A stretch of DNA of 64,000 nt. Origin: Alligator mississippiensis. Its lineage: Eukaryota; Chordata; Crocodylia; Alligatoridae. The stretch spans positions 218,085,978 to 218,149,977 of the forward strand of contig NC_081828.1 of NCBI RefSeq assembly GCF_030867095.1. Direction: 5' to 3'. The notes under the pieces were generated by a model. The model saw nothing but the letters and a program-made list of their open reading frames with translations. It made no database searches and was not told the origin of the DNA. The translations under genes were made by a program, and so were the position numbers. Of this stretch, positions 1 through 46,269 are shown in pieces; position 1 is the first letter of the stretch; each line of letters opens with the position of its first letter.

Positions 1-160
1 TCAGCAGCCGCGCGGCGTGCGCCTCCACCTTGCGCTCCACCGCCTGCACCGCCGCCACCACGGTCCACAGGGAGATGGCGGCCGTCTGCAGCTGGGCATC
101 CTTCACGAAGCTCACCTCGGGCATGCCGGGCGCTTGCAGCTCGGCCTCCCACTCCGAGGC
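1..160 (-). CDS. DUF3669 exon of a ZNF398/ZNF282-like zinc-finger gene (partial)
   Basis: Read on the minus strand, this exon opens after a pyrimidine-rich acceptor ending ACAG at 161-162 and runs off the left edge. It encodes about 53 residues, including QLQTAAISLWTVVAAVQAVE and then RKVEAHAARLL. This is the hallmark start of the DUF3669 coiled-coil domain that precedes KRAB in ZNF398, ZNF282, ZNF746 and ZNF777. The frame is phase 0 with the upstream exon at 689-712. The family are nuclear DNA-binding transcription factors. KRAB and zinc-finger exons would lie outside the window. It points away from gene A (5.4-11.8 kb), so two family members are head to head. Family assignment is firm; the exact orthologue cannot be decided from this piece. 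Confidence 0.85.
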
Positions 161-189
161 CTGTCGGCAAAGGGAAAGGGAGCTGGGAT

Positions 190-5458: not shown

Positions 5459-5838
5459 ACTCTAGGATGGGATATGGGATCCCGGCACCCCGTGTCTTTG
5501 AAGCCTGCTACTGTCCGCGAAAGAACTTTCCTGAAAGAAACCCAGCTGCAAGCGGCAGAAATGTCTCTGTGCACCGTCGTGGCTGCGATTCAAGCCGTGG
5601 AGAGGAAGGTTGATTCTTATGCCAAACAGTTGCTGAGTCTGGAAGGGAGAACAGGAGTGGCCGAGAAGAAGATATCGGCGTGTGAGAAAATGGAGATGGA
5701 GTTTGGTAACCAGCTGGCTATGCTGGGAGCTCTGATCCAGGAGAATCATCTATTGTGAGGAGGCTGGAGAGCATGGAGAGCCTGCTGGAGAACAGGAACC
5801 TCTGGATCCTGCGGTTCCCCCGGGGTCAAGTCCCCAAG
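5459..5838 (+). pseudogene. Gene A exon: DUF3669 domain, frameshifted
   Basis: The acceptor AATAG ends at 5458 and the donor AAG|GTAAGG follows 5838. Translation gives [37 protein letters not shown] and [18 protein letters not shown], the DUF3669 domain of ZNF398/282-type proteins. Two defects are visible. Four residues usual after GNQL (EGKW in human relatives) are missing. The frame then ends at TGA 5756-5758; one base earlier the conserved tail [19 protein letters not shown] reopens and runs to the donor. A one-base deletion explains this. Either the exon is dead, or the protein starts downstream, or the assembly has an error here. An in-frame ATG lies at 5474, but the exon is open back to the acceptor. 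Confidence 0.8.
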
Positions 5839-6329
5839 GTAAGGAGATCCCACCCCTGAGAAGGAGCTGGTCAGAGGCTGTGGGGCTTCTCAGAGGATGG
5901 GGAGGGAAGGGTGCAATAGGCAAAGAGACAGCAGGGCTTGGGCTGTCTCCTGTCTATCAGTTTGGTCCCCACGCGGTTTCTGCGACTGCATTTCAGACCA
6001 CGTGTTGGGACTGACACTTCTTAGCCCTCTCTTCTACCTCCTTTTTTTTCTTTCCATTTCCTTTTCCTCTCACTGCATCGTCTTTTTTCTGTATCTCTTT
6101 CCTTGTGTCATTCAGTTCTTCTGTGGGCTGCAGGCAAGGACAGGATGGAGAAACGCTGGAGAACTCTGCTGGGGTCGGACTAAGACAAGGACTCATTTCA
6201 ATAGCAGTTAAGCAGTAAATGCAAGTCCCTCCTTCTGCTGGCTGATTATCTGCTTTTAATCTAGCACAAAAGCAAGGTATGTCAGTGTTTGAACAGAAGA
6301 CGCTGAGTGTGTGATGCTTGTGATTGCAG

Positions 6330-6456
6330 GTGCCTGTGACGTTTGATGATGTCTCTGTGTATTTCAATGAGCAAGAGTGGGAGAGGTTGGATGAATGGCA
6401 GAAAGAGCTGTACAAGAACGTGATGAAGGGGAATTTTGAGACCCTGATCTCTCTAA
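6330..6456 (+). CDS. Gene A exon: KRAB A-box
   Basis: The exon starts after GATTGCAG and encodes 42 residues plus one base, beginning [17 protein letters not shown] and including [20 protein letters not shown]. This is a complete KRAB A-box (DV..YF..EEW-like core, LYKNVM). KRAB in this family recruits co-repressors weakly or variably. The donor is A|GTTAGG, weaker than consensus, and leaves phase 1, matching the next exon at 8133. The family's short intron before KRAB (here 491 bp) is kept. Confidence 0.88.
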
Positions 6457-8132
6457 GTTAGGATCTTTTTTTATTATGATTTGTTCAGTTGATTATTATA
6501 CTTGTAATTTCTGCATCTGAAGTGTATTTTCAAATCCCTTTAGCTTTTGGTGAATCAGTTTGTACACGTTTTCAAGTCTTTGTCATGTATCCTATCCACC
6601 CATCCTCTTAGCTAAAAAGACATTGAGATACAGATGGGCATTTTGGTCTTTCCATCGTTGTGCTTTGGATAAGGGCTCTGTTTGCTTATGCACTTAGAGT
6701 CCATCCCTCTTTCACCTATTATTGGTCTTGCATGGAGTAAAATACAACTGATTCAGGTGTTTTCTGGTAGTTACCCTTCACTAATTTTCTTTTCACACCT
6801 GTGACAGGTGTTTTTGGTTTCTGTATTGGTTCTGTTCATCGACTTGCAGGCTTCGTGGTCACTTGTTCATTGCAGTGTTGTCTCAAGAAATCATTTTAAA
6901 TAGATTTCAAGAAATGGTTGTAAGCTCCCTAGAGCTATGGGGAATGAACTCCCTTCTGAGGCTGGAGCCCGGCTAGCCCCTGAAGTCTGAACTTGAAAAC
7001 ATACCGCCTGAGTTCTTCCGGCTTCAGTATCTTTTGTTGAAGTTGGCTAAAGAAGCTGCCGTTCTTTGCATCAGATCCTAAGAGTGCAATAGCAGTGCCA
7101 CAAGGAAATAGGCACCCCTCCATTGCACACACATATGTGAGCATGCACATGTTGTATGTGCTAGATTGAAATGGGGAACTGACATGCAGCTGTCTGAAAT
7201 CCTTCCCCAAGCATCCTTCTCACTGGGTTGCCTCTAGTAGTGTGAGTTGTCGTCCCTATGTCTAATCAAAGGGAGAAAACTAGTAAGTCCAGAGTAGGTG
7301 CATCAAAGATACCACCCATAGGCTGGCTCTGGGCTGCGGAGCCCATTTTCCAGCCTCCAGGTGCTGCCCCTTGGTCCACAGTCAACCCATATGCAGCATG
7401 TGGTGTCCGCCAGCCCAGCCCCACATGCAGGGCCTGGGACGCATGCAACCCCCCTTTCCCCAGCTGCTCCAGGAGTGCGCTGTGTGCAGCACGGGTCCCT
7501 GACCAGCTTGGAGGGTGCTGCGTGCAGCATGGGTCCAGGACTGGCTGGTGGGGAGGGGGCATAGGAGAGAAGAGGGGCGCAGCTTCATGGACCTGATATG
7601 GTTTGTAGAGCCAGCCATGTGCTATTAATCTGGCCCATGGATTGACCCCTTATGACATGCCCGGCCCACAAGAGCAGATGAATTTGGCATGCTAGGGGTT
7701 TGCTGCTAGTCTTTATCAGCTCCGCGACGGAGGAGCTAAAGGGAGACTGTCATTCTCCACGCTTCTTGCTCCAGACTAGGTGTGTCCTTGACAAGGACTC
7801 TGGCCTTTCTGCAGGATTACAAGCAGGGGAGTAGATTCATAGCCTGTGTCTAAATGGGGGCATTGAGTCCCTTCTCTGTTAAAGGTCCTGAAACATCAGC
7901 TCCTTATCCACCCTAAGTTCTGCTACTAGAAATGTTCTTATCGGTCTGTTTAGCTCTTTGTGTCATTATTGCCTCTGGCAGTAACCATCGTAATTTAATA
8001 CAGTGTTTGTGCAGCACCCTAAGAACCTGCACAGGTGAGTACTATAGAAAGACAAAATATTTGTATTTACATTTATTTGTAACAATACCTGATACACGTT
8101 GGTAAACCCTGGATATCTGTTTCCATGCTCAG
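6457..8132 (+). other. Gene A intron
   Basis: 7320-7680 is a GC-rich block with repeated GTGCAGCA(C/T)GGGTCC words and looks like an unclassified interspersed repeat. The rest shows nothing recognisable. Open frames in the block have no family resemblance. Confidence 0.5.
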
Positions 8133-8246
8133 ACTACTCGGTGTCCAAACCTGACATTTTGTCTCGGACGGAGCGAGGGGAAGAGCCGTGCATCAGAGAT
8201 CAGCAGGATCTGAAGGAAAGGGAAATCCCTAGCTTCCCTGGTGTTG
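8133..8246 (+). CDS. Gene A exon: linker (SKPDIL segment)
   Basis: Acceptor CTCAG ends at 8132, donor G|GTGAGT follows 8246. The exon encodes [19 protein letters not shown] and then [18 protein letters not shown]. This acidic linker with the SKPDIL and EEPC motifs is typical of ZNF282/ZNF398/ZNF777-type genes, which have one exon per repeat. Phase 1 on both sides lets such linker exons be added or lost without frame damage. Confidence 0.85.
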
Positions 8247-9099
8247 GTGAGTATGTCGAGGCGCATGAAGGGATTTGTCTTTAGACTAAGCTAATTCATA
8301 CATTCACAGAGTCTTTGCTCCAATTGCTTATATCTTCAAGCCATGTTGGAGTCTCGCTCCTCTATCATGGTCCTTATTTATGTGAGAACGTTGTGTGGAT
8401 TCAACTAAATTGGTTTCTGAACCAGTTTGAGTAAATCAGTACAGCTTTCTGAACAGTCATGGTCTTAGTGGGTCTTGCTTTGGATTATCAATGTAATGGG
8501 GGCTGCTCTGCTCTAGTTCTGTTTAAAAGTAGACTATCCTGAGTACTCTGAATCCATGGCAAGGTTCTTGAAATTGGGGTTGTAGTAGCATTTTCTCCTG
8601 CTCGGTCCTATATTGCTCTTGGATGTCTTGCCTTCAGGTCATGTTGTTTAACCACACTTTGTTGCTCCTGTGATGTGAGTGCATCTGTAGCTAGTAGGAT
8701 CCTGATCTGAAAAGAATGTGTAATACAATCAGTGAAGCAGTTTCCTGCTACTGATAAGCTAGGTGGGGATATTTACTTACTCCCATTGTGTAGTTACACA
8801 TCTACTCAAGTGTCCTAGGTACTTTATGGAGCATAAAAAAGCACTCTCCCAGCCCTTAGTAGTCTCAGTTTGGATGCAATGTTAGGCTACAGTGCATAAC
8901 TGCACAAGAGGAAGGCAGGGAAGGGAGCGGGAGATGGTGATGATTATCCTGAACTCCTTTGTTGACTGTACAGCATCTCTGATAAAGATGAGCTTGCAGG
9001 AGAGACTCTGGTAATGTTCGTAGTGGTTGAGCTAAGAGAGGTAGTTGAATGAATCAAAGGAGGGTGGACTCCGTGGCTCTGTTCCTAGTAGACAAAACC

Positions 9100-9490
9100 T
9101 GCAAGGATGAAACTTCAACACTGGGCTTATTTAATATGGAGAACAGAAAACTGAGGGGGGATTGAATAGCAGCCTTCATCTCCCTGCAGAGGGGTTGCAA
9201 AGAGGATGGGGCTGGGCTGCTCTCAGTGGGGGCAGACAACAGAACAAGGAGCAATGGGCTCAAGTTGCAGCAAGGGAAGTTGAGGGTGGATATTAGGAAG
9301 AACTGTCTCACGAGGAGTGTGGTGAAGCACTGGAGTAGGTTACCCAGAGAGGTGGTGGGATCTCCATCCTTGGAGATGTTTAAGACCTGGGTAGACAAAG
9401 CCTTGGCTGGGATGATGTAGTTGGGGCTGGTCCTGCTTTAAGCAGGGGCCTGGACTAAGTGTGACCTCCTGGGGTTTCTCTAAAATGTTC
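9100..9490 (+). mobile_element. CR1 LINE 3' fragment in gene A intron
   Basis: The stretch resembles the CR1 3' end seen at 37.3-37.6 kb: GGGATTGAATAGCAGCCTTC, the word GGTGGTGGGATCTCCATCCT, and TTGGGGCTGGTCCTGCTTTA. It is short, non-coding and in the sense orientation of gene A. Confidence 0.75.
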
Positions 9491-9558
9491 AATAGATAGA
9501 TAACAGAACTCCCTTCTCCCAAGAACAGATCTTCCCATTCCCGCTCCTACTGTGTTAG

Positions 9559-9642
9559 CCCAGCTTGAACAAGAGGAAGAGCCGTGCATTGGGGAACTGC
9601 AGGAGTTGGAAGAGAGAGCGATCCCTGCATGTCCCACTTCAG
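9559..9642 (+). CDS. Gene A exon: second linker repeat
   Basis: Acceptor TGTTAG ends at 9558, donor CAG|GTGAAT follows 9642. The exon encodes QLEQEEEPCIGELQELEER then AIPACPTS, a repeat of the EEPC...R.IP linker in the previous exon, as in ZNF282, which has several such repeats. Phase 1 at both ends. Confidence 0.8.
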
Positions 9643-9881
9643 GTGAATGTCAATAATATGTCAGAACCAAGCAGAAATGGTGAGTGAAGTGTGTGTGCGT
9701 GCGTGTGCGCACATGCACACACATGTACACGTGCTGTGGTTGTCTAACTGAATCACTGAGCTCCACCAGTTCTGTCCCCTTGTCTCTAACCAGCCCTTGT
9801 CTTGTCTCCATGGCAGGTGTCAGTCACTTTGACTATGGGCCGTGTATCCCTCACCTCACTCCTTCCTTTTCTGAACTTCAG

Positions 9882-9995
9882 ATGGACCCCAGAAGCAGAA
9901 TTGTTTTCCTCCTCTTCCCTCCGGTGAAAGCACCGGGGGTATAGGTTTTTCACATGCTGGGGAGGAGACAGGACCCCAAGATCATCAGCTTAAAG
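9882..9995 (+). CDS. Gene A exon: third linker
   Basis: Acceptor ACTTCAG ends at 9881, donor AAAG|GTAACT follows 9995. With the carried base it encodes DGPQKQNCFPPLPSGESTGG then IGFSHAGEETGPQDHQLK. Length 114 nt and phases 1/1 match its neighbours. No domain is recognised. The exon assignment rests on the open frame, splice sites and phase. Confidence 0.6.
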
Positions 9996-10727
9996 GTAAC
10001 TTATTGTTCTCACTGCGTTCTCTAGATGAGGTGTGATAGCTCTCCCTCATTCCCAGGCCGACACTGTGTCATAGTGTGGCATTACTTGGATTTATTGGTC
10101 TTAAGAACCTACAGTATACTGCATACGGTCTCCATCTCACAATGCTTGAATCTGGAGAATGGGATCAGCTGTTCAGAAAAATTTTCAAGCAGCAGATCTA
10201 CAATTCATTTCTTTGCAAACTTGTTTTCTCCTGCTAACTAGACTTAACCAAGACTGCATATCTGCCTGTGCTTTCATCATCGGCACTTCCTTTCCAAAAG
10301 GTATTTGTAAATTGGGTAATACTGGGGACTGATTTTGATCATGTAGAAATGAGGAGGGTGGCTCTTTACTGATATGCACAGATGCTGGAGACCGGAGGAG
10401 GCAGCTGAGGATCTTGGCTCTGCAGTCACTGAGATTGGTTAAAGTCACCTTTATCTGAGGTTGAAATACTCCGATCACGGGCTGAACCCAGGTTGTTTGT
10501 TGGTATGCAGCTTTCCAGCCAGTATTGGTATTCTTTGGGGCAGTTCATGTAGCACCTGGTCAAAAGGGGCCCCGATCCCTGCTTGAAGTTTCTAAGCTTG
10601 ACTGTAATGCAGGTAATCTGCTTTTTCAAAATCGAGCTTCCTGTCGTGTAGGAATATCTTGCTGTTGCAGGGTTTTAGTATAGCCCAGGCATATGAAAGC
10701 ATCATTTGGACTCTTTTTCTGTTCTAG

Positions 10728-11404
10728 CACATAATGGGATTGAGATTAAAATGGAAGAGCTGTGTCCATGCCCTGTTTTTGGAAACCTGGAACTGCCCCA
10801 GATGTTGGCAAGGAGGGAGGAGGAGGACGTTCCTTGGAGCCCCGTTCTGGGGACGGGTTGTGGCAGTCGGGGCCAGCGGAGGAGCCAGGAGGGGACTGCA
10901 TCAGGGCAGTTGTCCCTGCAGAATAGGGGCACCCCTGACATCCAGAGCAGCTTGGTTCCCCTGCCGAGTCACTCGGGGGAGAAACTGTTCCAGTGCGGAG
11001 AGTGTGGGAAGAGCTTCCCGCAGAAGTCCAGCCTGGTGACGCACCGCCTGACACACACGGGCGAGCGACCCTACGTGTGCGGCGACTGCGGCCAGCGCTT
11101 CAGCTGCAGGAAGTACTTTGTGCAGCACCAGCAAATCCACTTGGAGGAGAAGCCGTACAAGTGCCCGGTGTGCGAGAAGAGTTTCAAGCAGTTCTTCAAC
11201 CTGACGGTGCACCAGTGCATGCACACAGGTGAGCGTCCCTGTGCATGCCCTGACTGCGGAAAGCACGTCAGCTGCAAGTTGTACTATGTGCTGCACTGGC
11301 GCCACCGCACCGGCAAGCGCCCCTACGTCTGCCCGCAGTGCGGCAAGTGCTTCATTCAGCAGTCTGAGCTCACCAGCCACTACCGCACCCACACCAGGGA
11401 GTGA
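10728..11404 (+). CDS. Gene A last exon: C2H2 zinc fingers
   Basis: Acceptor TTCTAG ends at 10727. The exon encodes AHNGIEIKMEELCPCP (IKME fits the sumoylation pattern), a low-complexity linker, then five C2H2 fingers starting at FQCGECGKSFPQKSS. TGERP-type linkers join them. Finger 4 has irregular histidine spacing (HWRH), so its zinc site may be poor. The frame ends at TGA 11402-11404 in an HTRE context where GER/CGA is usual. A sixth finger (YVCGQCGQSLTQQAK) continues in the same frame after the stop. From KRAB to stop the five exons total 1116 nt, an exact multiple of three. Combined with the 5' frameshift, the gene looks recently impaired. Confidence 0.85.
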
Positions 11405-12499: not shown

Positions 12500-13348
12500 C
12501 ATCTCCTTCTCTTCAACAAAGAGCAGGGATGTCTGCAATGGGTGCTGTCTAATCTGCCCTACGCTTTAGAGGAAGAATGAGGGGAAAGACAGGGTTGTTG
12601 GAGGTAAGGCAAAGGGCACAATGAACCTCTGAATGCCTCTGAGTGGTTCTTGCAGTCTGTTTGGTTTGATGCCAGTCTGATTTATCTCATGGGAAGTTTG
12701 CACAGATGGTGCAGGTTCCCCGATATACCTTTGAAGCTCAGCGGAGACTCCACTAATGGCTCTGGCACTTTTCAGTGTGAACCCGGGGGTTTCTGTGTTC
12801 TTTTCCATAAAAACATGTGAGGTTGCTTTTTACCATATGCCTCCTTGCAGAGAGAGGACACCTGGGAGCATCTTGTCTAGGGAAAGTTGAAAGACTTTTT
12901 TCTCTTGCTTCACAGAGTATTTCCTCTCCTGGTAAACCAGCGTTTTCTACGGCAGTTTTCATACTAAGAAGTTTGTGTTTCGTATGTACGTGCTGGCATA
13001 TCGCATGCATTCCCACAGGTGACCGAGCTTAATCCTGCGATCGCTGGACGTACCTGAGGACACGGCTCGGACGCGTTCTGTGCGAGCACGTGTGAATCCC
13101 AGACCTGAAAGGGAGGTGCTGCATTGGGGTTAGTTTAGCAGGGTTTTTTTCCCTCGGGGATCTTGAGTCAAGTTAAATCCTTCTGGGCCCCAGACAGGGA
13201 GGGACACAGAGCTCTGACATGCACAAATGTTGGCCTTGCCCTGCTGTGCAAGTATTAGAAGAAATTCACCTTCTTGGTAGCGCTCCACCGAGTCTCCGAA
13301 GGCTGCATGTGTGTGATAGCGAAAGCCTTATTAGCGATGACTCGGCTG
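12500..13348. other. No gene seen
   Basis: Unique-looking sequence between gene A and the AT-rich satellite. No exon, RNA gene or known repeat recognised. Confidence 0.4.
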
Positions 13349-14531
13349 TATTAATTTATACTAAACTGCATACTATATGTATAGTACTAAACTGTGTACT
13401 ATACTGTATTAATTTATACTAAACTGTGTACTATACTGTATAATAAACTGTGTACTAAACTGCATACTATACTGTACTAATTTGTACTAAACTGCATACT
13501 ATACTGTACTAATTTATACTAAACTGCATACTATACTGTATAGTACTAAACTGTGTACTAAACTGCATACTATACTGTATTAATTTATACTAAACTGCAT
13601 ACTATACTGTATAGTACTAAACTGTGTACTATACTGTATTAATTTATACTAAACTGCATACTATACTGTACTAATTTATACTAAACTGCATACTATACTG
13701 TATAGTACTAAACTGTGTACTATACTGTATTAATTTATACTAAACTGTGTACTATACTGTATAATAAACTGTGTACTAAACTGTGTACTATACTGTATAA
13801 TAAACTGTGTACTAAACTGCATACTATACTGTATTAATTTATACTAAACTGCATACTATACTGTATAGTACTAAACTGTGTACTATACTGTATTAATTTA
13901 TACTAAACTGTGTACTATACTGTATAATAAACTGTGTACTAAACTGCATACTATACTGTATTAATTTATACTAAACTGCATACTATACTGTATAGTACTA
14001 AACTGTGTACTATACTGTATTTATACTAAACTGTGTACTATACTGTATAATAAACTGTGTACTAAACTGCATACTATACTGTATTAATTTATACTAAACT
14101 GCATACTATACTGTATTGTACTAAATTGTGTACTAAACTGCATACTATACTGTATTAATTTATACTAAACTGCATACTATACTGTACTAATTTATACTAA
14201 ACTGCATACTATACTGTATAATACTAAACTGCGTACTATACTGTATACATACTATACTGTACTAATTTATACTAAACTGCGTACTATACTGTATAATACT
14301 AAACTGCGTACTATACTGTATACATACTATACTGTACTAATTTATACTAAACTGTGTACTATACTGTATAGTACTAAACTGTGTACTATACTGTATTAAT
14401 TTATACTAAACTGCATACTATACTGTATAGTACTAAACTGCGTACTATACTGTATTAATTTATACTAAACTGCATACTATACTGTATAGTACTAAACTGT
14501 GTACTATACTGTATTAGTTTATACTAAACTG
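13349..14531. repeat. AT-rich minisatellite, 1.2 kb
   Basis: The block is an array of two alternating words, TATACTAAACTG(CA/TG)TACT and ATACTGTA(T/C)TAATTTA. Some units add a TAGTACTAAACTGTG or a TAATAAACTGTG segment, so the higher-order spacing varies (about 30-70 bp). TACTATACTGTATAGTA is nearly self-complementary and recurs many times. There are no unique spacers, so it is not a CRISPR array. Confidence 0.95.
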
Positions 14532-15240: not shown

Positions 15241-15631
15241 ACTACATTCCCCAGCATGCCCCGCGCCTCCCGGGTTCCCGCGCTTCTCTCAACTCCATGC
15301 GATTGTCCAATCAGAGACAGGCCCTGCCTGCTACCGGCCAATGGGAGGGGACGTTTCAGAGCTACGCTCTTTCTTCCGGGGGGAGGCCGTTAGATGAGTG
15401 ATTGATAGGGCGAGGGAGCCAATCCGAAAGCGGAGGCGGCCAAGAGGTTGGCCAATCAGAGGGGAGACGGAAGCACTTCAGAATACGAGGGAGAGTGCCG
15501 GCGCGCGCCGCTTCTGATTGGCCGCCGGCCTCGCGCGCTCTCCTGCGTTCACCCAGTTCGGCCTCCTCCCATTGGTGGGTGGTGCTGCGGGAGGGGGCGG
15601 GGCGGAGGAAGATGGCCGCTGGCCGGAGGAG
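15241..15631 (+). promoter_or_regulatory. CpG-island promoter of the THAP-KRAB gene
   Basis: ACTACATTCCCCAGCATGC at 15241-15259 is a close match to the ZNF143/THAP11 site (ACTACAATTCCCAGCATGC). Six CCAAT or inverted ATTGG boxes follow (about 15308, 15339, 15419, 15452, 15518, 15571), a strong NF-Y pattern. AAGATGGCCGC at 15609-15619 matches YY1, which often sits just downstream of a start site. A donor G|GTGAGA follows 15631, so a first exon probably ends there. The small frame MAAGRRR opened at 15612 is probably untranslated or an upstream ORF. The nearest downstream gene is the THAP exon at 17333. Confidence 0.7.
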
Positions 15632-15688: not shown

Positions 15689-16156
15689 CCCACAATGCAC
15701 TGGGGGTGTCGACTGGGGGGACCCCATAATGCACCGGGGCGCCGGGCTGGGGGTTCCCCATAATGCACTAGGGCCAGGGGTAGGAGGGGGGCTGTAACCC
15801 CCGCCCCGTAATGTACTGGGGGTAGAGTGTGTGGGGTATATTCCCCCATAATGCACTGGGGGTAGAGTGTGTGGGGTATATTCCCCCATAATGCACTGGG
15901 GGTAGAGTGTGTGGGGTATATTCCCCCATAATGCACTGGGGCCAGGGGTAGGAGGTGTGTGTTGGGGGGCTACATTCCCTCATAATGCCCTGGGGTCAGA
16001 GGTAGGGCGGTGTGTGGGGAGTGGGGGCTTTGCTCCCCCACAATGCACTGGGGCAGGAATATTGTGTGTGCTGGTGATGGGGGGGCCACATTTCCCCCAC
16101 AGTGCACTGGGGTGGATTGCTGGGGCTGGTGCGTGTTCCCCCAGAATGCACTGGGG
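15689..16156. promoter_or_regulatory. Array of about eleven ZNF143/SPH-like motifs
   Basis: The near-palindromic word CCCCATAATGCACTGGGG, or one- to three-base variants, recurs at about 15689, 15721, 15755, 15807, 15843, 15883, 15923, 15977, 16035, 16094 and 16138. It fits most of the SPH/SBS consensus bound by ZNF143 (CCCANNATGCAYYG core). Three units around 15.83-15.95 kb are a perfect 40-bp tandem repeat, with GGTAGAGTGTGTGGGGTATA between motifs. Elsewhere only the motif is conserved and the spacers differ. It lies just inside the first intron, or downstream of the start, of the THAP-KRAB gene. Confidence 0.75.
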
Positions 16157-17332: not shown

Positions 17333-17808
17333 AGATGCATGTATCTGCTGCTCTTAGTAGAAAGCAGTAGTTGATCAGAAACTCTCGAAACACACCTCTT
17401 AATATATTATTTTAAAATTTGCCTCCACGGCTCCTTTTGACAATGGTGTATTGCTCAGCTTTGAACTGTCAGAATGCAACGAGCGGGGTGTATAAGAACA
17501 GTTCTGTTACCTTCTATGGTTTTCCTTTACAAAACAAACCTCTCTTGAAGCAATGGATTCACAACATGGGTCGGGATATGGGAACTCCTTCTAAGCATCA
17601 ACGACTGTGTTCGAAACACTTTGAGGACAGTTCTTTCGAAATCGATCCCCTAAAAATTAGGAAAAATAGGCGCTTATTGAAAGAGGCCGTCCCCAAAAAA
17701 TTCATTTTGGATGAAGATGGAAACTGGTTAGTTGGAACACCTCGAAGTTTCTGTGGTGCAGTAAGCAATAAAACTCGAAAACGAATCCGGAATCCTGAAA
17801 GTTTGAAG
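17333..17808 (+). CDS. Gene B exon: THAP zinc-dependent DNA-binding domain
   Basis: The acceptor ends at 17332 and the donor AAG|GTAATT follows 17808. Coding starts at ATG 17443 (A at -3, G at +4, in-frame TAA upstream at 17413) and gives 122 residues. It is a full THAP domain: C4 and C9 (MVYCSALNC), P28, W38, the QRLCSKHF pair C56/H59, then F65 and AVPKKF at 82-87 in place of the usual AVPTIF box. A basic tail (SNKTRKRIRNPESLK) follows and could act as a nuclear signal. The exon ends in phase 0, exactly as a DUF3669 exon does before KRAB, so it can splice in frame to the KRAB exon at 19603. The canonical relatives have DUF3669 here instead. Confidence 0.88.
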
Positions 17809-19602
17809 GTAATTTAAATGTTTGCTACTTTACTTCGCTTCTTGTAGATTAGGAAAGCACAATAAGTGCTTTGATAGGATTTACTTAGGGAAACCCTAGA
17901 TGTTGTAGGAAATAAAAAGGATGTTGGCAATGCAGTGGATGTTGTTTTTCCTTCTGAGTGGTACTGAATGGACGTGTGGCACGGAGCATATGGTAGCAAA
18001 CATCTGGCTAACATTAAAAATGGCTTTGGTACTCTCTTTACCATGTACCACCTTGGAGAATTGTGTTCTGTCTGCGTCTCAGTTTCTGTCTGGAGTTAGT
18101 TGGACACTGTATTCTTCTTCCCTTCATGCTCTAAGATAAATCCTGACCCTGCAAACTTGTAGTCATGTGAGAAAGCACTCCTTTCCTTGTGTGTATCTAA
18201 CTTCATTTGATTTCAGTCAGATGGCTGGTTGGTGAGATGGCTTTTGCACCATGTCTGGGGGCTCTGTTACCAGTTTCTGTCCAGCTCTGTTTCCTGCGTA
18301 TTGGTTTGGGCCCATGGTCTGTTTTAGGGCCAGATCTTACAAACCCTAACTGGAATGGTGCATACATTGCTAAGTCTGTTCACAGGAGTAAAAGGAAATA
18401 TTCAAGTGACCACAGGTTTATAGAATTGGGTCTCTGGGTTGTACAGTTGACAAAGTTTGTGAAGCTGCTAAATACATTTGGGTGAAAGGCAGAGTGTCCA
18501 TTCATAATGTTACCATGAGAACAGTAATACTTGCTGGGCAAATATTGATGCAACTTCATGTCAATTGTGTCCTTAACTTTTAAATTAATTGTTAAAAAAG
18601 TGTTTACAGACTTAATGTAAATAATGCAGTCCTTGATATACTAGTCTTGAATTAACATGTGTATCTTAATTGACTAAATCCCATGTTTGTGACTTCAGGA
18701 GCAAAAACATTGACAACAGTGTCATCAGAAATTGCTTAAACTGTTGGACGTGTGTTGGAATTGAGCAAGATTTAAGGCCAGAGAAACATTTCATCTCTGG
18801 AAAGTGAAAGAGGCAGCTGACGAGCATGTCATCTACCACACTACATGCAGCTTTAGCTGTCTCAAAGACAGCAGGATCTAGATGAGTTGGAGGGAATGCA
18901 GAGAAGAGCAACAAAATAGACTAAAAATTTGGAAGGTGTAAAAGAACTGAAACATGTCTTTTTAAAGGGTGAAGCTATAGCTGTCTATTGATTTTTAAAG
19001 AGAGAAACATTAAGGAGTTAGGAAGCTATTCATGGGGGTATAACTAGGGGTACACAACTGTAAAAGAACAAAGAAAAACGTAGATTATTAGAGAGAGAAA
19101 TCCTGGCAGTGAGATCTATTAGGCTGCCATTGTGTACTAGCTTGAGTAGACAAGAAAGCATTGAATAACATATTGAGGAGACCAAGGCAGACAAGGTTCT
19201 TTGGGTACATGAGATATCTTTTATTAGACTAACGAAATAGTTGGAACAATTGTTCTTTGCGAGCTTTCGGGCACAAACACCCATCTTTAGGCATAGGGAG
19301 AGTATGTCCTTAGACCAACATGGCTACAACCAGCAACCCTTGAACAGAACAAGTGCATTGACTTGGACCAAATAAGATTTTAAAGTCTTTTCTGCTTTTT
19401 TTCCTGATGGTTTTCAATGTGGGAGGATGTTGTTTTAGAGGCGAGGAGTGCTATTTTGAAACAGGCACAGAAAAAGCAGTCAAGATTTCTCTGAAACACC
19501 TGCCAGATATGTATATTTAGAAAACTCAGCAACAGGGAGCTTGCACTTGTCAGGATGTAACTGATGCAAGTGATTCTGAGTATTTAACACTCTTTATTCC
19601 AG
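17809..19602 (+). other. Gene B intron
   Basis: 19170-19350 contains an interspersed repeat with TCTTTTATTAGACTAACGAA, GAGCTTTCGGGCACAAACAC and CCAACATGGCTACAACCAGC. Related words occur at 52430-52560 and 56360-56430. The rest is unremarkable. Confidence 0.5.
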
Positions 19603-19717
19603 GTCCCGGGAGCATTTGATGATGTTGCAGCCCACGAGGGGAAGAACTTAGAAGCGTGGCAGAAAGAGCTTTACAAGAAAGTGATAAAGGATAATTATGA
19701 ATCCATCATTTCACTTG
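19603..19717 (+). CDS. Gene B exon: divergent KRAB A-box
   Basis: Acceptor TTCCAG ends at 19602, donor G|GTAAAG follows 19717. It encodes 38 residues plus one base: VPGAFDDVAAHEGKNLEAWQ then KELYKKVIKDNYESIISL. Compared with gene A (42 residues) it lacks four residues around YFNEQEW, so the core that contacts the co-repressor is damaged, while WQKELYK and the tail are kept. Entry in phase 0 and exit in phase 1 are as in gene A. Repression through KRAB is therefore doubtful; the exon may serve mainly as a linker. Confidence 0.82.
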
Positions 19718-20445
19718 GTAAAGGTCAGTTTTCCTTCACTTACCGGAAGCTGAGCGATCAGTGTCGTTTCTGTACTGGTTCTTATCCAACCATTATTCCT
19801 AAATCCTCCAATTTTAATCAGTTCTTCTGTGCTTCAGGTACCTTGTGAAAAAAAGGTCAAACCCCGGTCAAAGAAGGTTGAAAGGCACACAGTTGTGTCT
19901 CTAATACTTCCCTTTCTGCTGATTCCTGCTCTGGGTATTACCTTTATTTTGTGTATGTCCACCCCTGTGTATACAAATGTTATTTCCACATGTGATTTCG
20001 GTGGAACACTCCCTAGTTAAAGGGTGTTGTAAGGATAAAGGGTTTAAATCTTTGCCTGTGGTGTGTTTTTTTTATTTTTATTTTTTAAATTTACTGGTTC
20101 CTTTTTGGTCCTCATACATTTATGTGGAAGATCTTTACTAAATATGACCTGCATGTTCTTTGAGTCTTTCTGAACCCTTTCATGGGTTTTTCAGTCCTTA
20201 TAAGAATTTAAACCATGTTTGTTTCTCGTTGCAGTTTGTCTTTTGGGTACATCTGCAGTAGTTCACAGGGTTTCCAGAGAAACAGTAACGTCAAAACCCT
20301 GTGGCTTGTTAATCTGGCAGCTGTAATTTGAGCTGCTCCTAGTTTAATTTTTTTTTTCCCTGCTGTACTTGCATTTCTTGTAATCCACTGCTGTATTTCT
20401 TATACCTGCCAATGTCACCAGCAGACGAGGCAGGGGTTTAACAGG

Positions 20446-20893
20446 CAACAGGGTGCGTCTGCGCATTCATTAATGTGCTTTAGGTAACGTACATTAGCTG
20501 AAGAGCATGGGACATTTTTACATGCATTTCCAATGCAGTGCCAGGCACTTCTAATTAGCGAGCCATGCTAATTAAAAGCACCTGCACGTCATGCGTGGCT
20601 CCGCCCTGAGAAAATGGCAGTGGTGCGCTTTGAACTAAAGCACATCAAATATGTTTTATTTCAAAGTGCACTGCTGCCGTTGTCTCAGCGTGGAGATGCA
20701 TCGTGCTGCTGACACACGTGATGCACAAGGCTCCAGCAGACTTGATTGAGTCTACTCTGACACGCTGGATTTCCAGCGCATTGGAGCAGGCTCCCCGCAC
20801 GTGTGTAAGTGCCTACAGGTTTTTGTGATGCTTTAATGAACATTAACATAGGCTAATACACATTAAAGCGCATGTGGAGATGTGCCCACCAAC
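20446..20893. mobile_element. MITE-like DNA element with terminal inverted repeats
   Basis: The left end GGGTGCGTCTGCGCATTCAT and the right end, read in reverse as GGGCACATCTCCACATGCGC, are imperfect inverted repeats. Both are followed inward by (T)TAATGTG words. About 450 bp, no open frame. Related ends are seen at 4.2-4.56 kb and 58.98-59.17 kb. Target duplication and superfamily were not resolved. Confidence 0.55.
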
Positions 20894-21654
20894 TCCTTGA
20901 CTACACAGCCATGATTTGCCACCAGAGCTCTTTCCATCCTGTGCAATAAGGGACGGGTGGCATGGAAAAAATAGTGTAGCATAATTAAAGAGGGCAGCGT
21001 AGTGTATCCACTTACCAGTAGAAATGTTGAGTCTCTTGTTGCATAACATGGAATTGTTAGAGCTTCTCAATGAAATGCTTCAAGGAATTTTTTTTTTTTT
21101 TGAATATAACAAAACAGTGTCTATTTACCTCGTTTTTTTCTGAGAAATGGCTAGACCATTTTCACTGAAACTTTACAGTAAAATTCAGCATGGGGCCAAC
21201 ACTTGGCATGGAAATTTCAGCACAAACCATTACATTTTGGCAAAATTATAAGCACCTGGAAATAGGATCTTATAATGGAAAGTGTGAGGCAGCTTTAAGC
21301 ATAACTGTTGCTAAGTATATCACTTGTAGTAAGAGGTGTGGTAGAGATTACAGTACAGGAAAACTTGTGTCTGCTTGGCCTGCAGAGGGCAGTTATGTCA
21401 GCCAAGGCAAAGCTTAAATTGGTCTCGCTTGCTTTTTCCTGTGGATGTCAGAGCCCCTGGTTTTTAATAGAAATTCCTGAAAACATGAGATAAGGCAGAA
21501 ATAAACTGCAGGTCTTATCAGCCAGAAAAGTGAACAGACTGACAGAAGGCCAACTTAAACACTTGCTCAGAGTACCCGCCACCTAATTATGTAGCATTTT
21601 TTTCTGCTTTCATAATAACTATGATTAAATCCCCATAATATATTCTTTGTTCAG

Positions 21655-21756
21655 ACTATTCCGTTTCCAAAAATTACATGCAGGCACGAGAAGAGCTGCA
21701 TGTGAGGGATCGGCAGGACTCCGATGAAAGAGAAATTCCTATGACTCCTAATACAG
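21655..21756 (+). CDS. Gene B exon: linker (DYSVSK segment)
   Basis: Acceptor TTCAG ends at 21654, donor CAG|GTGAGT follows 21756. It encodes YSVSKNYMQAREELHVRD and then RQDSDEREIPMTPNT, homologous to the gene A exon at 8133 (YSVSKPDIL...[12 protein letters not shown]). Length 102 nt, phases 1/1. Gene B keeps one such linker where gene A has three. Confidence 0.85.
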
Positions 21757-22875
21757 GTGAGTAATGAGTTAAGACAACTACAAAATTGCATTAAAGCTGG
21801 CAGTCTAGTAAACCATCACAATAACCTACAATTTAATCTCTTCTCATATATTCCTGCTTTATTACCAAACTTGTCCTACTTTTATAGTAGCTGTAAATTA
21901 CCAGTCATCATTAGGCTAGCAGTGTCTTTGCAGATGATTGCTCAGCAAATAAATTAGCCCATATAGGGATTCATTCTGCTTTGGGTATCCAGGCTAGCTC
22001 ATTTAATGCTAACTGGGGTACCTCTAAACTGCACTGTAGTGTAGGCAATACCCTGAGACAGTTTCTTCCCTTTCATGCATTCTGTTTTGAGTGACTGTTC
22101 AGATATTGTATTATAACTAATGGCTTTTTCACTATGCAAAATCACGTGGTGCTGTATATTTACAGAGCAGTTCTTAAACAAATGGTGTGACATATTCCCC
22201 ACTCTGAGGAATGTGCTGTGAAATGAAACATCTGCTTATATTACCATCATTATGCTAGCGTCTAGGTGACGCGTCAAATAATTTAGGAAAAAGAGGGACT
22301 GGAGAATTATTAGTGATGAGCAGGAGGTAGGGAGGATTTACTGAAGGCATTGTAAACAAAGACTTGAAGAAGGTGAGAGGGTGCTTGATGAAAAGGAGAG
22401 GGGAAGCTTCCAAAAGGTGGGGAAGGAAGTAGCAAGTTGAGAAAAGAGAAGCCTGAAAAACAGAAAGAGTAGGGGGAAACAAGAGAATATTCTGGAGGCA
22501 AGATGGGATTTGTCTTGTGGAGAAGTCATACTTCTAGTTCATGTAGTAAAAATATCGACAGTCAGATAGGATCCAGAGGGTCAAAATGATTGGAATCAGA
22601 TAGGCATCCAGAGTGTTGAAATCATTCTGATCTGTTGTGGTCTTTCTCAGTTCTTGGCAACAAAAGAATTGCTCTAGCATTTTTCTCCAGTCAAGTGAAA
22701 ACTAAGAGCTGGTATTTTCTGTGGGGAGTCTTGAGTCTAAAAAGGTTGAGAACCACTGGTCCAAGACATTACCCATTGTCCATGAGAGTCGCAATCAGTT
22801 AGGGATACGTTATGCTTAGGAGGTTTCCTTTAACTCAAGCAGATGAAATGAATGCTTGGATTCTTTTCATTCCAG

Positions 22876-23408
22876 TGGATTATGGGATTGTGATAAAAAC
22901 TGAAGTACAGGATCATGATGAAGGTCCAGAAAACATGGAGCTGCACGCATCGCTTTCAGGAGGATCACAAGACCTGGCGTGCCAAAGTCCTGACAAGGGG
23001 GTCGCTTATGAGAGCTACTGGAGTTCAGAATCGGAGCAGAGGAGTCCTGTGGAAAGCAGAATGGGTAACTTCTCACTTGGTGAAGGGGAGTCCAGTGAAT
23101 TCAAAGACATCCTTTTCTGCGAGGAAACCCATGTAGGCGAAAGACTTTATATATGTACAGAATGTAACAAAACCTTTAAGCTGAAGAGAGGACTTCTAAA
23201 ACACAAGCGAATTCACACCAAAAGGAATCAGGTCTCGTCATACATCTGTACAGACTGTGGTAAAAGCTTTGGTCGCCATGCAGATCTCATTAGACATCAC
23301 AGAACTCACACTGGAGAGAGACCTTATAAATGTACAGAGTGTGAGAAAAGCTTCACTGAGAAACCCAGACTTACTAATCACTTACGAACTCACAACATAT
23401 ACATGTAA
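22876..23408 (+). CDS. Gene B last exon: three C2H2 zinc fingers
   Basis: Acceptor TTCCAG ends at 22875. The exon opens VDYGIVIKTEVQDHDEG (IKTE fits the sumoylation pattern). An acidic linker and three C2H2 fingers follow, starting YICTECNKTFKLKRG, YICTDCGKSFGRHAD and YKCTECEKSFTEKPR. The HTGERP linker is intact between the last two. Stop codon 23406-23408. The coding parts of the four exons (366, 115, 102 and 533 nt) total 1116, an exact multiple of three, giving about 371 residues. No internal stop or frameshift was found. THAP and C2H2 would give two separate zinc-dependent DNA-binding modules in one protein. Confidence 0.88.
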
Positions 23409-23479
23409 CCAGTGAAGCCAAAGCTCAATTGGAACAGATTTCCACTCAGTCACCAACAGCCCTGCCCAGAGTAGATGGC

Positions 23480-23811
23480 CCTCGGGTGTCTCTCAAATGC
23501 AGGAAAAGCTTTAGAGCGAGGCCATTTCTACAGCATTGCATTGAACTGCAGCATGAGATGGACCCCGTTGTTGTAAGTCTGCTCACCCTTGAGCAGCAAC
23601 CTATTCTCCGTTAGCTGTCAGGTGATTCAAGTACGGGGAGGGAACATATAAATTTACTCAATTTTATATGAAAGTTTAATTGCAAAAAAGGCCTCTTCTA
23701 AAATAATTACTAATCTAACCTGGCAACAGACCAGATTAGTGCAGCATGTGTGGGAGGTATTTTAGATATAAGAAACTTTTGATAGATCACCCAAGAACGT
23801 GCAGAACAGCA
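23480..23811 (+). pseudogene. Decayed zinc fingers after the gene B stop
   Basis: 23489-23560 reads SLKCRKSFRARPFLQHC then IELQHE, a finger that has lost its first cysteine pair. 23740-23811 reads CSMCGRYFRYKKLLIDHPRT then C. This resembles the last finger of ZNF398 (CGRSFRYKQTLKDH), so the ancestral array was longer and gene B has shortened from the 3' end. Confidence 0.65.
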
Positions 23812-29217: not shown

Positions 29218-29382
29218 AGCGGACAGGAGCGGGGCATTTGGACGAGCGGCAGAAAGAGCTCTACAAGAACGTGATGAGGAACATCTGTGGGGCTCTGATC
29301 TCGCCGTGTAATGAAATATTCACGACCGGCCCCTCGTCTGCTCCACGCACTTCACAGACGACTGTTTCGACATCTCAAGCGT
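29218..29382 (+). pseudogene. KRAB remnant of a third zinc-finger gene
   Basis: One frame reads FSGQERGHLDERQKELYKN then VMRNICGALIS. This matches the KRAB A-box of gene A ([22 protein letters not shown]) with W-to-R changes at two tryptophans. It is followed within 20 bp by the THAP remnant, in a different frame. No zinc-finger exon is seen downstream before the CR1 at 29.75 kb. Confidence 0.75.
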
Positions 29383-29548
29383 GACGCAGAAGAAACTGGA
29401 GTTTGGGAAGTGGCTGCTTCTCACCAAAACGGCCGTCCCGACTCTAAATGTCTCTCTGGCCGCGGACAGGAGCTTGTCGTCCCCGTTGCAGCTGAGAGGA
29501 AGAGGAGTCTTCTGGACAAAAATTGTCCCAGAGGTATTTGGTGAATAA
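29327..29548 (+). pseudogene. THAP-domain remnant (C-terminal half)
   Basis: The frame from 29327 to the TAA at 29546-29548 reads RPLVCSTHFTDDCFDISSVT, QKKLEFGKWLLLTKTAVPT then LNVS. C-x2-H followed by F, TDD.F and AVPTL is the second half of a THAP domain. The first half (C-x-C, P, W) is missing; two stop codons lie just upstream. It is a better match to the canonical AVPT box than gene B, so it is not simply a copy of gene B. Confidence 0.72.
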
Positions 29549-30389: not shown

Positions 30390-31652
30390 AGAACAGTGAA
30401 ACTACGTGTTAAAGCCACCCTGACTCCCGAGGGGGTGAAGGGGCAGACCACTATGCTGAGAGCAGACTTTATGAACAAGATTCTGTTCGAGGACTTGCAT
30501 GTGAACCCAAAAGACTTAAGTTGCATGGTGGCTTTTGATAATTTCCGCCACTGGAACATTACTTTCTGGAGGAGAGAGGCGTACTCTGCCTTCTGGGATC
30601 GGTACGCTGAGGTGGCAGACAAGGAGGAATTGCAGGGGCTGCGGTTTGAAATGGGTCAAAGGTCCCAGGAGAGAGCTTTGTATTTCAAGATGTATTCAGA
30701 TGAGCTAGAGCACGAAGATATGAGAAGGTGGCTGGAGGGGCGGGTCGAAAAGATCCTGCATATCCAGCGTGTCCTGGACCACTGGCAGATCTGGACCGGG
30801 GCATGGAAAGCCAGAGTGGTCCTAGAAGAAGATCTGAGACACCCCGGCGGGGTGAGGCACCTGCCCTCCCTAGTGTCCGTAGGGGCCCACCGTGGGTACG
30901 TGACGTACCACGGCCAGCCGAAGCTGTGTAGCAGGTGCGGCGTGCAGGGCCACATAGCTGCCTTCTGTAGTCTGACGGTTTGCTACAGGTGTGGCGGCAT
31001 GGGGCACCGGGCCAAAGCCTGTAAGGAAAAAGTGGAGTGCACCTTGTGTGGAGGTGAGGGGCACCTGCAGCGCCAATGCCCCCTGTCCTACGCCAACAAG
31101 GCACGAGAGTTGCACGCAGCAGGGGAGAGGAGCAGAGAAGATCCAGGAGATGAGAAGACCGGCATTTTGGACACGGACACCCGCATAGTTGAGGAAACCC
31201 CGGAGGTGGAGCGGAGAAACGACGGGATCGAGGCAGCCAGCCAGCTCACCGTGTCCGAAGAAGGGCAAGAGATGGAAGAGGAGCAGAGCGAGGGAGCGGG
31301 AGAAGGGACACAAATATCTGAGCCAGCAGCCATGGACCTGGAACTGGCTGGGGATCAGGGGAAAGAGGCTTCTTTGGTGAAAAGAAAGAAGAAACGGAGT
31401 GCAAAGCCAAAGAAAAAGCGGCTAGAGGTGAAAGGGGGAAAGGTCCAGGAGACAGAAGGGGGAAAGCTGGAAACAGCAGTGGGGAAGAGCGGGGAGCTGC
31501 CTGTGGAGGAACAAAAGGTTGAGGAAGGGGAAGGGGAGGATAGTGATAGCTACCTGAGCTCCTCTGCAATCGACCTTCTGGTCAGGACCACGGGGATGCA
31601 GAAAGGTGGGGGAGACACCTCAGACCTAAGTAGTGACACGGACGACATCTGA
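30390..31652 (+). CDS. LINE ORF1, nucleic-acid-binding protein with CCHC knuckles
   Basis: Open from 30390; the first ATG is 30453 (about 399 residues, MLRADFMNKILFEDLHVNPK). Recognisable similarity starts before that ATG, so the true start may be upstream or non-AUG. The middle holds three CCHC-type knuckles (CSRCGVQGHIAAFC, CYRCGGMGHRAKAC, CTLCGGEGHLQRQC). A long acidic/lysine-rich tail follows. ORF1 proteins of this group bind the element RNA. The stop TGA overlaps the ORF2 start as TGATG. Confidence 0.85.
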   Translation, partial: RTVKLRVKATLTPEGVKGQTTMLRADFMNKILFEDLHVNPKDLSCMVAFDNFRHWNITFWRREAYSAFWDRYAEVADKEELQGLRFEMGQRSQERALYFKMYSDELEHEDMRRWLEGRVEKILHIQRVLDHWQIWTGAWKARVVLEEDLRHPGGVRHLPSLVSVGAHRGYVTYHGQPKLCSRCGVQGHIAAFCSLTVCYRCGGMGHRAKACKEKVECTLCGGEGHLQRQCPLSYANKARELHAAGERSREDPGDEKTGILDTDTRIVEETPEVERRNDGIEAASQLTVSEEGQEMEEEQSEGAGEGTQISEPAAMDLELAGDQGKEASLVKRKKKRSAKPKKKRLEVKGGKVQETEGGKLETAVGKSGELPVEEQKVEEGEGEDSDSYLSSSAIDLLVRTTGMQKGGGDTSDLSSDTDDI

Positions 31653-34600
31653 TGCAGGGTTTCCTCTTCTGGAAAACAGCCCTGATGGCATTGACCGTGG
31701 CATCTTTAAATGTACGAAGTTTATACAGGAAGCAGAGATGGGAAACAATGTCCAAAACCTTATGGGACCTGCACACACAAGTGTTGTGCTTGCAAGAGTG
31801 CGGGATCCCATGGGGGAGGAATTATAAATATTTGGAGGAGCGATGGGGGGTTGGACCGTCATGGTGGGGGGGTTCAAATGAGAACAAATCAGCGGGAGTG
31901 GGGATCCTGGCAAGGAAAGGCGGCTGGAAAATCAAAGGCCAGCAGGTCTTGGAAGAGGGCAGACTACAGAAAGCAGTGGTGGAGGTGGAGGGCGTGGATG
32001 TGACTGTGTACAATGTCTATGCCCCAGCCGAGGATACGGAGAGGATGCCCTTTTTGCATAAATTGGGGATGTGTGTGGGGGGTGGAGGACCGCGGATTGT
32101 GCTGGGGGATTTTAATTGCATTGTCGAGGAGGGTGGGCGGATTGGGATAGGGCAGGGAGTCGGGATGGGTAGTACGGGGAAGTGGCTACGGGAGTGGATT
32201 AAAGATGAGGGGCTCCAGGACACTTGGGAAGGGTCAGGGGTGTTTACTAGAGTGGATCCAGGAGGACGGGGGCAATCGAGGATCGATTTTGTGCTGGTGC
32301 CAGAGGGGTTGGAGATCCGCAGGAAACAACTGATTGACGTGGTTTTCTCAGATCATCGCATGCTGTGGGTAGAGGTGGGCATCGGGCAGGGGCTCAAACA
32401 GGGGAAAGGAGTCTGGAAACTAAATGTCTCGTTATTGGATGACCCCCAGGAATGCGTTGCCTTCGAAAGTGCGTATCGCCAGTGGCAAACCTTGCAACCC
32501 TTTTTCCCAACCCGGTGGGACTGGTGGATTGAAATTAAGGGGCGCGTGCGAGAGTGGTTCGATGGTGCGGGGAGGAGAAAGGCACGCCAGAAAAAGAAGG
32601 AGCTGGCACGCTTGCAAGGAGAAGTTCAGAGATTGTGGGAAGAGTTGAAGAAGGGGGAAGCAGTGAAGAGAGAATGGGAACGGGCGAGAGAGGGGGTGAA
32701 AAAGTGGTTCCGCACCAGGATGAAAGAACGGATGCTCCTGGCCAAGGCGCAGTGGGTGGACGAGGGGGAGGAATGGGGCAGGTTTTTCACTTTACGAGTG
32801 AAAAGCAAGAAGCGGGTGATGGAGGTGGTCCGCACGGCCGACGGAGGAAGGGTGGAGGATGTAGAAGGGGTCTTGCGGGAGGTGACGAGATATTACAAGG
32901 ACTTGTTTCATAGGAAAGCGGTGCGGCAGGAACAAGTGGAGGGACTGGTGGGGAGTCTGGAAAGAAAGGTGGGGGAGGAAGGGAGGGAGAGTGTGAGAAA
33001 GGAATTGACGGAAAGCGAAATGCTGGGCGTCCTGAGATCGATGCCACTAAAGAAGACACCGGGAGGAGACGGGATCCCGGTGGAGCTCTACGGGAAGTTT
33101 TGGGACTTAGTGAAGGGGGATCTCTTGGCCCTTTTTAAGGAATTCATGGCGCGGGGTCAGGCAGGGGAGGGCTTTGCCCAGGGTGTCGTGGTCCTGATTT
33201 ACAAGAAAGGGGAACGGGAGCACATTAAGAACTGGAGGCCAATCACCTTGTTGAATGCCGATTATAAATTATTCACCAAGATCCTAGCGGCGAGGTTGGG
33301 GGCGGTGTTACCGCAGGTGCTGGGTGAGGAACAGATGTGCGCAGTGGGGGGGCGGCGGACGACACAAGCACTCTGGGTGCTTCGGGACACGCTGTCGTAT
33401 GTCACGGAACGGAAGTGGAACACGCTAGTGGCGAGTCTGGACCTGCAAAAGGCGTACCACAGCATTGGGCATGAGTTTCTGTTTCGGGTCCTGGAAGGGA
33501 TGGGGATGCCGGGAGAATTCGTGGGGTGGGTGCGGGCACTTTATGGAAAGGCTACAAGCAGGGTGCTGGCAAGGGGTTTCCTGGGGGAAGCCTTTGCAGT
33601 GGACTCGGGGGTGAGACAGGGATGCCCGCTGTCGCCGGGGCTCTTTGTCTGCGCCATCGAGCCCCTGGCACAACGGATCGGGGGGATAGGGTGATTAGCG
33701 AGGTGAGAGTGCCGAGGGGAGGGGAATTGAAAATCCTCCTATACATGGATGATGCGACGTGTAGTGAGGGACGAGGTGTCCCTGGGAAGAGCCTTGAAGC
33801 ACGTAGACGAGTTTGGGGAGGCATCCGGAGCGAGGCTGAACGTGGACAAGAGCGTAGTGCTTGCGGTAGGGAATTGGGGGGACTTGAGAAACCTTGGGCT
33901 ACAGGTGGAAAGGGAGGAACTGAAGGTGCTTGGCGTCTGGATGGATACCCAGGGGAAAGGGAAACGGGCGTGGGAAGTGTTGGAGGGGAGAGTGAAGCAG
34001 ACGGTGGGGTTGTGGAGCACACGGGGGCTATCATCGAGGGGGAAGGTGCAAGCGATCAAACAGTGCTTGCTGCCGCTAATCCTGTACACGGCGATGGTGT
34101 ACCCCCCGTCCTGGCGACAGGCCCGGCGGGTCCAGCGGGCCTTGTGCCTTTTCTTTTGGGGGGGGAAGACCGAGAAGGTGGCTAGGACAGAGATATATAA
34201 GGAAGAGGGATTGGGGGGATGGGGCTTCCCCAACATAGAGACCTTCGCTTACGTGCACTTTTTGAAGCTGGTGGTGAGGGAAGCGAGGGGAGCAGCGGGC
34301 ACCGTGACCGATTTCTGCAGGTTCTGGGGGGGAAGCTCCTGAGAAGGCTGGGCCTGTTCGGGAGTGCGTGGCAGGGAGCGTGGGCTTGGCAGATGTCGCG
34401 GCCCTACGCCCGACTTGGAGCCTTTGTTGCACAAGAAGGATTGGAGGGGTTAGGGATCGAGGGGCTGGGAGATGCCAAAAAGGTCTTCAATTTCCTGAGA
34501 GGGAAGCAGAGGATGTCGGATGTCGGGGAGTTGAGACCGGAGCAAGTCCGTAGGGTGTGGAAAGGACTGGTGGGGAAGGACTGGAAAGGGGAGCATGAGG

Positions 34601-35085
34601 AGCTGGCGTGGAGGGCGGTGCGAAATGCTCTGCCAGTGCGACAGGTGCTCTATCGCTGGGGACTCTCCCGGTCCCCCAAGTGCCCAAGGGAGCTCTGCGA
34701 TGAGCCCAAGTCGGTGACACATGTACTGTGGGACTGCTCGTATGCACAACGGGTGTGGGGGAAGGTGACCACCTATTTGAAGGATACGGGAAGGGGAACG
34801 GGGGTGACTTCCAGAAATGTTCTCTATGGTTTATCAGAGGGGACGGATGGGACATGGGGGGTGCGGGTCTTAATCACCTGCACCAAAGTAGCACTATGGA
34901 AAGTACGCTCCTTGTTGGCTCTAAAGGGGTCGTGCTTTTCCACAACAGAGTGTCTGCAGCTAGCAATGCACGAGCTGCACTTCTATAGAGATAGAGAAGG
35001 AAATACGAAAGAAGGAGGGGAGGAAAAATTGTGGGAAGAGCTGGACTTCAGGGGGTTGTTTCAGCCCCGCACAGGTGTAGGCTAA
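31652..35085 (+). pseudogene. LINE ORF2, AP endonuclease and reverse transcriptase, frameshifted
   Basis: ATG at 31652 shares its A with the ORF1 stop. The protein opens MALTVASLNVRSL a few codons in, then LVLGDFNC-type (IVLGDFNCIVEE), SRIDFVLVP and SDHRMLWVEV, which are endonuclease motifs. Reverse transcriptase blocks follow: KKTPGGDGIPVELY, NWRPITLLNADYK, SLDLQKAYHSI, SGVRQGCPLSP and LLYMDDATC with the catalytic YMDD. A C-terminal cysteine/histidine segment follows (CPRELCDEPKSVTHVLWDC). Total about 1140 codons. The frame shifts near 33.69, 33.75 and 34.33 kb, so this copy probably cannot move itself. Confidence 0.88.
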
Positions 35086-45487: not shown

Positions 45488-45529
45488 AGGCTGGCTCTCT
45501 TACTGCAAAAGCAAGGGTGCTAACATTTG

Positions 45530-46020: not shown

Positions 46021-46269
46021 CATTAGGACTCTGTAGTGATGTCCCTGAAAACTTATTTAAAGGTCAGGCCATCTGAGCAGGCTCTGTTTTTCCTCCCAGG
46101 GCTGCTTGAATCCTGAATTGGGAGCCAGAAAAGCCTGCTCCCCATGGGGTCCCCCCTCGTCACTGGAGAAGCAAACTGAAGTGATGAGAAGGGAAAACTT
46201 CAGATACAGCGAGTGAAAGACTGTCTCAGGGCTTGAGACCTCTGCTCTCTCCCACTTCTTCCCCCTTTT

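Follow-up and report, generated by a model that had tools for sequence, protein, structure and literature searches.

KRAB domains are joined to transposase-derived DNA-binding domains in the fusion genes ZNF862 (KRAB and hAT) and POGK (KRAB and pogo). THAP genes carrying extra zinc-finger domains have been reported in invertebrates, and humans are said to lack such genes (PMC13228809). In human THAP1, a coding exon ends in phase 0 behind the THAP domain, at c.267 in codon 89 (PMC8039296); this position was deduced from the silent variant c.267G>A (p.K89K), which is listed together with F25fs and was taken as loss of exon 2 (PMC8039296). In the DUF3669-KRAB-ZNF family, DUF3669 serves as an oligomerization and weak repression domain (PMC6923878). 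Within the window, i.e., the whole 64-kb stretch of alligator DNA that was analyzed, we consider it fairly probable that one plus-strand gene, reaching from a candidate CpG/CCAAT promoter near 15.3 to 15.6 kb to position 23.4 kb, encodes a THAP-KRAB-C2H2 protein of 371 or 373 amino acids. It would be a paralog of the DUF3669-KRAB-zinc-finger genes of the cluster (ZNF282/746 type), with THAP in place of DUF3669 in the phase-0 first coding exon. As a single gene, it probably represents a new domain architecture. The sequence itself shows the domains, the open frame, the quality of the splice sites, the lack of DUF3669, and the constraint on the KRAB and linker exons; splicing, expression, DNA binding, and function are what we infer from it.

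The THAP domain announced in the original prediction is well defined. Pfam PF05485 matches with 61 bits (E value of 1.9e-16) over profile positions 1 to 86 of 87, exceeding the curated cut-off of 23.9 bits, and the ligand residues C4, C9, C56, and H59 as well as W38, all named beforehand, are present. The domain ends with AVPKKF (residues 82 to 87), which is of the AVPxxF type. According to Pfam and splice scoring, the coding exon covers positions 17443 to 17808 (plus strand, 122 codons) and has the donor AAG/gtaatt; its end at 17808 is in phase 0, as had been proposed. The start codon ATG 17443 has an A at position −3 and a G at +4, with a TAA in the same frame upstream at 17413. All splice sites were scored with a simple human consensus. 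By this measure, none of the window's 4782 AGs outscores the acceptor at 17333, which ranks first or shares first place (top 0.02%), and the donor of the THAP exon belongs to the top 0.7% of the 3673 GTs. Since 17333 is such a strong 3′ splice site, the THAP exon is best described as an internal exon (17333 to 17808) that includes a 5′ untranslated part (17333 to 17442), in which short upstream ATGs are found. When compared with 10 human THAP domains, the domain was nearest to THAP5, followed by THAP8 and THAP4, and the nearest PDB sequences were THAP2 (2d8r) and THAP1 (2ko0). A single-sequence AlphaFold prediction of the THAP exon alone reached a pLDDT of 45, a confidence too low for use.

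The next coding exon of the proposed gene is a noncanonical, KRAB-A-like exon (19603 to 19723, plus strand) leading from phase 0 to phase 1 and having four residues fewer than its counterpart in the neighboring gene A. No other phase-0 exon downstream of the THAP donor scored as high, and together with the linker it is recognized by Pfam as KRAB (E value of 2.7e-7). As the exon itself provides no Met, an upstream start is needed. The previously proposed KRAB donor at 19717 keeps the frame but is weak (top 10%); the donor at 19723, 6 nt further on and in the same frame, is stronger and adds two codons, resulting in 373 rather than 371 amino acids. The KRAB acceptor ranks in the top 0.7% and the donor of the linker exon in the top 0.1% of the sites scored in the window. 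The linker exon (21655 to 21756, plus strand, 102 nt), reading DYSVSKN...EREIP, is homologous to positions 8133 to 8246 of gene A and to human ZNF282. The last coding exon (22876 to 23408, plus strand) starts with the SUMO-type motif IKTE, continues with an acidic and serine-rich stretch and three perfect C2H2 fingers (at residues 290, 321, and 349), and terminates with TAA. The junction numbers 19603, 21655, and 22876 of the original prediction thus hold as the first bases of their exons, whereas the THAP exon had to be supplemented by the acceptor at 17333 and the untranslated part. All introns between the four coding exons are of the GT-AG type. The joined segments 17443 to 17808, 19603 to 19717, 21655 to 21756, and 22876 to 23408 add up to 1116 nt without an inner stop, in agreement with the open frame expected, and the spliced coding sequence with donor 19723 (1122 nt) is open, too. 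Past the stop codon, decayed extra C2H2 fingers are found in other frames (23474 to 23799, plus strand; about 23474 to 23560 and 23722 to 23799).

Upstream of the THAP exon, the region 15241 to 15631 (plus strand) probably comprises the promoter and a noncoding exon 1 ending at 15631. This assignment, which relies on sequence features, takes into account an exact THAP11/ZNF143-type M4 motif (ACTACATTCCCCA) at 15241, the one such motif in the candidate promoter, several CCAAT/ATTGG boxes and a GC box between 15.24 and 15.63 kb, and a base composition of the CpG-promoter type. M4, i.e., ACTAYRNNNCCCR, is bound by THAP11 (PMC5006282). The region also contains AAGATGGC at 15609, which is the sole copy in the window, and the highest-scoring donor within 15.0 to 17.3 kb, whose exon end at 15631 directly follows the promoter-like stretch. 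Direct splicing of the candidate exon 1 to the KRAB exon was rejected, because the ATG of exon 1 is out of frame with KRAB. The putative first intron harbors an array of eight Staf/ZNF143-like CCCANAATGCA sites (15689 to 16150, plus strand; 0.2 expected), part of which forms a 40-bp tandem repeat. Further upstream (13346 to 14531), a very A+T-rich tandem repeat of about 1.2 kb is located, with ACTATACTGTATAA-like units of 12, 32, and 59 bp.

Gene A (5468 to 11404, plus strand) served for comparison. It consists of a DUF3669 exon (5468 to 5838, ending in phase 0), a KRAB exon (6330 to 6456), a linker exon (8133 to 8246), and a zinc-finger exon (10728 to 11404), and additionally has a linker-like stretch near 9528 to 9640. 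The claim that the exons following the THAP exon correspond to those of gene A in order and phase proved correct. The DUF3669 exon of gene A shows a 1-nt frameshift near 5756, which reflects either a pseudogene or an assembly error. A partial DUF3669 exon at the very edge of the window (1 to 163, minus strand) indicates that the cluster extends further to the left. Between 11.9 and 19.6 kb, no DUF3669 exon was detected by Pfam, by tblastn with human ZNF282, ZNF746, and gene A as queries, or by a purpose-built profile derived from these three sequences, so that the DUF3669-free stretch upstream of the KRAB exon amounts to 7.7 kb. The DUF3669 queries do recover gene A (5468 to 5838) and the minus-strand gene at the start of the window; as Pfam missed the DUF3669 domain of gene A, tblastn and our own profile carry the weight of this negative result. 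Phase agreement by itself is weak evidence (1 in 3) and was given little weight. A phase-0 end behind the THAP domain makes an exchange of DUF3669 for THAP frame-neutral, and replacement of the DUF3669 exon by a THAP exon would be the simplest history. The exon replacement originally proposed therefore stands in part: the sequence is best read as a THAP-KRAB-C2H2 gene that has no DUF3669, and this gene may reflect either a swap of an ancestral DUF3669 exon or read-through from a neighboring THAP gene.

Six kilobases downstream, a relic (29232 to 29440, plus strand) consists of the 3′ half of a KRAB exon (29232 to 29303) followed by the 3′ half of a THAP exon (29333 to 29440), in differing frames and in reversed order. 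Pfam detected these parts with E values of 6.8e-4 (KRAB) and 1.5e-3 (THAP), the profiles with 4e-6 and 3e-4, respectively. The relic is clearly dead, and its THAP part is not close to the THAP domain of the main gene. It may be what a deletion left of two THAP-KRAB genes in tandem, or else derive from an independent THAP copy. Its two parts show that THAP and KRAB pieces came together at least two times in this cluster. The window further includes a LINE-like element (30390 to 35085), with an open reading frame for ZCCHC3-like RNA-binding domains and zinc knuckles followed by an endonuclease and a reverse transcriptase, and an integrase core (rve) fragment of an LTR element (45500 to 46063, minus strand). 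No relative was found among the IMG/VR viral contigs.

An unlikely alternative, yet the one that survives best, holds that two units are adjacent, namely, a THAP-only gene (exon 1 and THAP exon, TAA 17815, polyadenylation near 17930, 124 amino acids) and an orphaned, start-less KRAB-zinc-finger fragment lacking its DUF3669 exon. The alternative end of THAP (17815 to 17916, plus strand) comprises the TAA, reached two codons after the donor, and AATAAA at 17911, behind which GT-rich DNA follows; a THAP-only transcript and product of 124 amino acids is thus possible, either alone or as an isoform, and this is the chief objection to the single gene. Two separate units would also be in line with the shortened KRAB exon, with the decay of the fingers past the stop, and with the second THAP fragment at 29.3 kb, according to which THAP copies may sit in the cluster independently of KRAB genes. 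Moreover, since the phase-0 end resembles that of THAP1, a stand-alone THAP gene would give an equal phase match. These points are countered by the good phase-0 donor of the THAP exon exactly before the TAA, by the long constraint on KRAB and linker and the open KRAB, linker, and zinc-finger exons, and by the 124-amino-acid reading itself, in which the HCF-binding motif [DE]HxY, common in THAP proteins, was not found.

The constraint just mentioned is evident from the codons of KRAB and linker, of which 31 of 44 synonymous but only 41 of 169 nonsynonymous sites are changed in comparison with gene A (Fisher P = 2e-8). The corresponding dN of 0.23 and dS near 2 yield a dN/dS of about 0.15, a rough ratio because dS is near saturation. 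In addition, the 4-amino-acid gaps relative to gene A in both the KRAB and the linker exon preserve the frame. On the evidence of these substitutions, the copies of KRAB and linker in gene A and in the THAP gene must both have spent most of their history under constraint. The term "KRAB relic" used in the original prediction is consequently justified only with respect to the loss of four residues and of the TRIM28-contact motifs, as the exon is otherwise strongly constrained. Another doubtful reading, to which we assign slightly less credit than to two units, is that THAP-KRAB-ZF was once a gene and is now a recent pseudogene, a dead or dying chimera. The losses in KRAB and in the fingers past the stop mean that the gene may be recently dead, and the frameshift in the DUF3669 exon of neighboring gene A and the dead relic at 29.2 kb point in the same direction. 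However, no ligand residue of THAP or of the fingers has been lost, and the 1116 nt are free of stops and frameshifts. In simulations of neutral evolution, the coding sequence was still open with a probability of 0.06 (6%) after 0.02 and 0.02 (2%) after 0.03 substitutions per site, so a sequence dead for more than about 0.02 to 0.03 neutral substitutions per site is expected to be broken. That both products are made, a THAP-only isoform by intronic polyadenylation and the full THAP-KRAB-ZF protein by splicing, appears very improbable, even though the THAP donor and the polyadenylation signal each look usable.

Returning to the favored single THAP-KRAB-C2H2 gene, its KRAB exon is missing two TRIM28-contacting features, the glutamate of the EW motif and MLE (AAH----EGKNL; VIKDN versus canonical VMLEN). 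In ZNF93, Glu17 and Glu35 have an essential or important role in TRIM28 binding (PMC9753469), and TRIM28 binding is weak or absent in ZNF746 and ZNF777, whose KRAB domains depart in similar ways (PMC6923878). With these contact residues absent, silencing via TRIM28 by the predicted protein is unlikely. In the predicted protein, DNA would most likely be contacted both by the THAP domain and by the three fingers, so that two linked or alternative sites would be read, and the remaining KRAB domain, the linker, and the SUMO-type site would form a weak, TRIM28-independent regulatory arm. The oligomerization surface of the family would be lost along with DUF3669, and the protein should thus be uncoupled from the complexes of the DUF3669-KRAB-ZNF family.

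A bolder reading, to which we would concede not quite an even chance, is that the locus encodes a live transcription factor of new architecture. In it, an exchange between phase-0 introns would have brought a THAP exon into the place of the DUF3669 exon, so that a DNA-binding domain of the P-element type stands beside C2H2 fingers and a degenerate KRAB domain; the relic 6 kb away would suggest that the pairing came about, or was duplicated, more than once in the cluster. If true, a clean exon swap at matching intron phase gave a former oligomerizing repressor two DNA-binding modules, in a cluster whose other members are highly conserved; vertebrate KRAB zinc-finger genes could then capture THAP domains, too. 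No description of a THAP-KRAB protein was found in the open-access full texts searched, and an annotated but undescribed reptile gene model with THAP-KRAB-C2H2 may well exist.

The gene shares with the DUF3669-KRAB-ZNF subfamily (ZNF282, ZNF746, ZNF777, ZNF398, ZNF212, and ZNF783) the exons for KRAB, a DYSVSKP-type linker, and the fingers, arranged in equal order and phase, the noncanonical KRAB domain, and the SUMO-type motif at the start of the finger exon. It differs from this subfamily by a THAP exon in the position of the DUF3669 exon, which was not found, by a KRAB domain shorter by four residues, and by having only three intact fingers. With THAP proteins it has in common a complete N-terminal C2CH THAP domain with AVPxxF and a phase-0 exon end as inferred for THAP1; in contrast to them, it lacks the HCF-binding motif and is joined to KRAB and C2H2, and the THAP domain, split by an intron at c.71 in THAP1, is unsplit here. 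Unlike the KRAB domains of canonical TRIM28-recruiting zinc-finger proteins, that of the THAP gene has neither the EW glutamate nor MLE. ZNF862 and POGK likewise combine KRAB with a DNA-binding domain of transposase origin, whereas the alligator gene would have captured a THAP domain (P-element type), which is N-terminal, and retains its C2H2 fingers.
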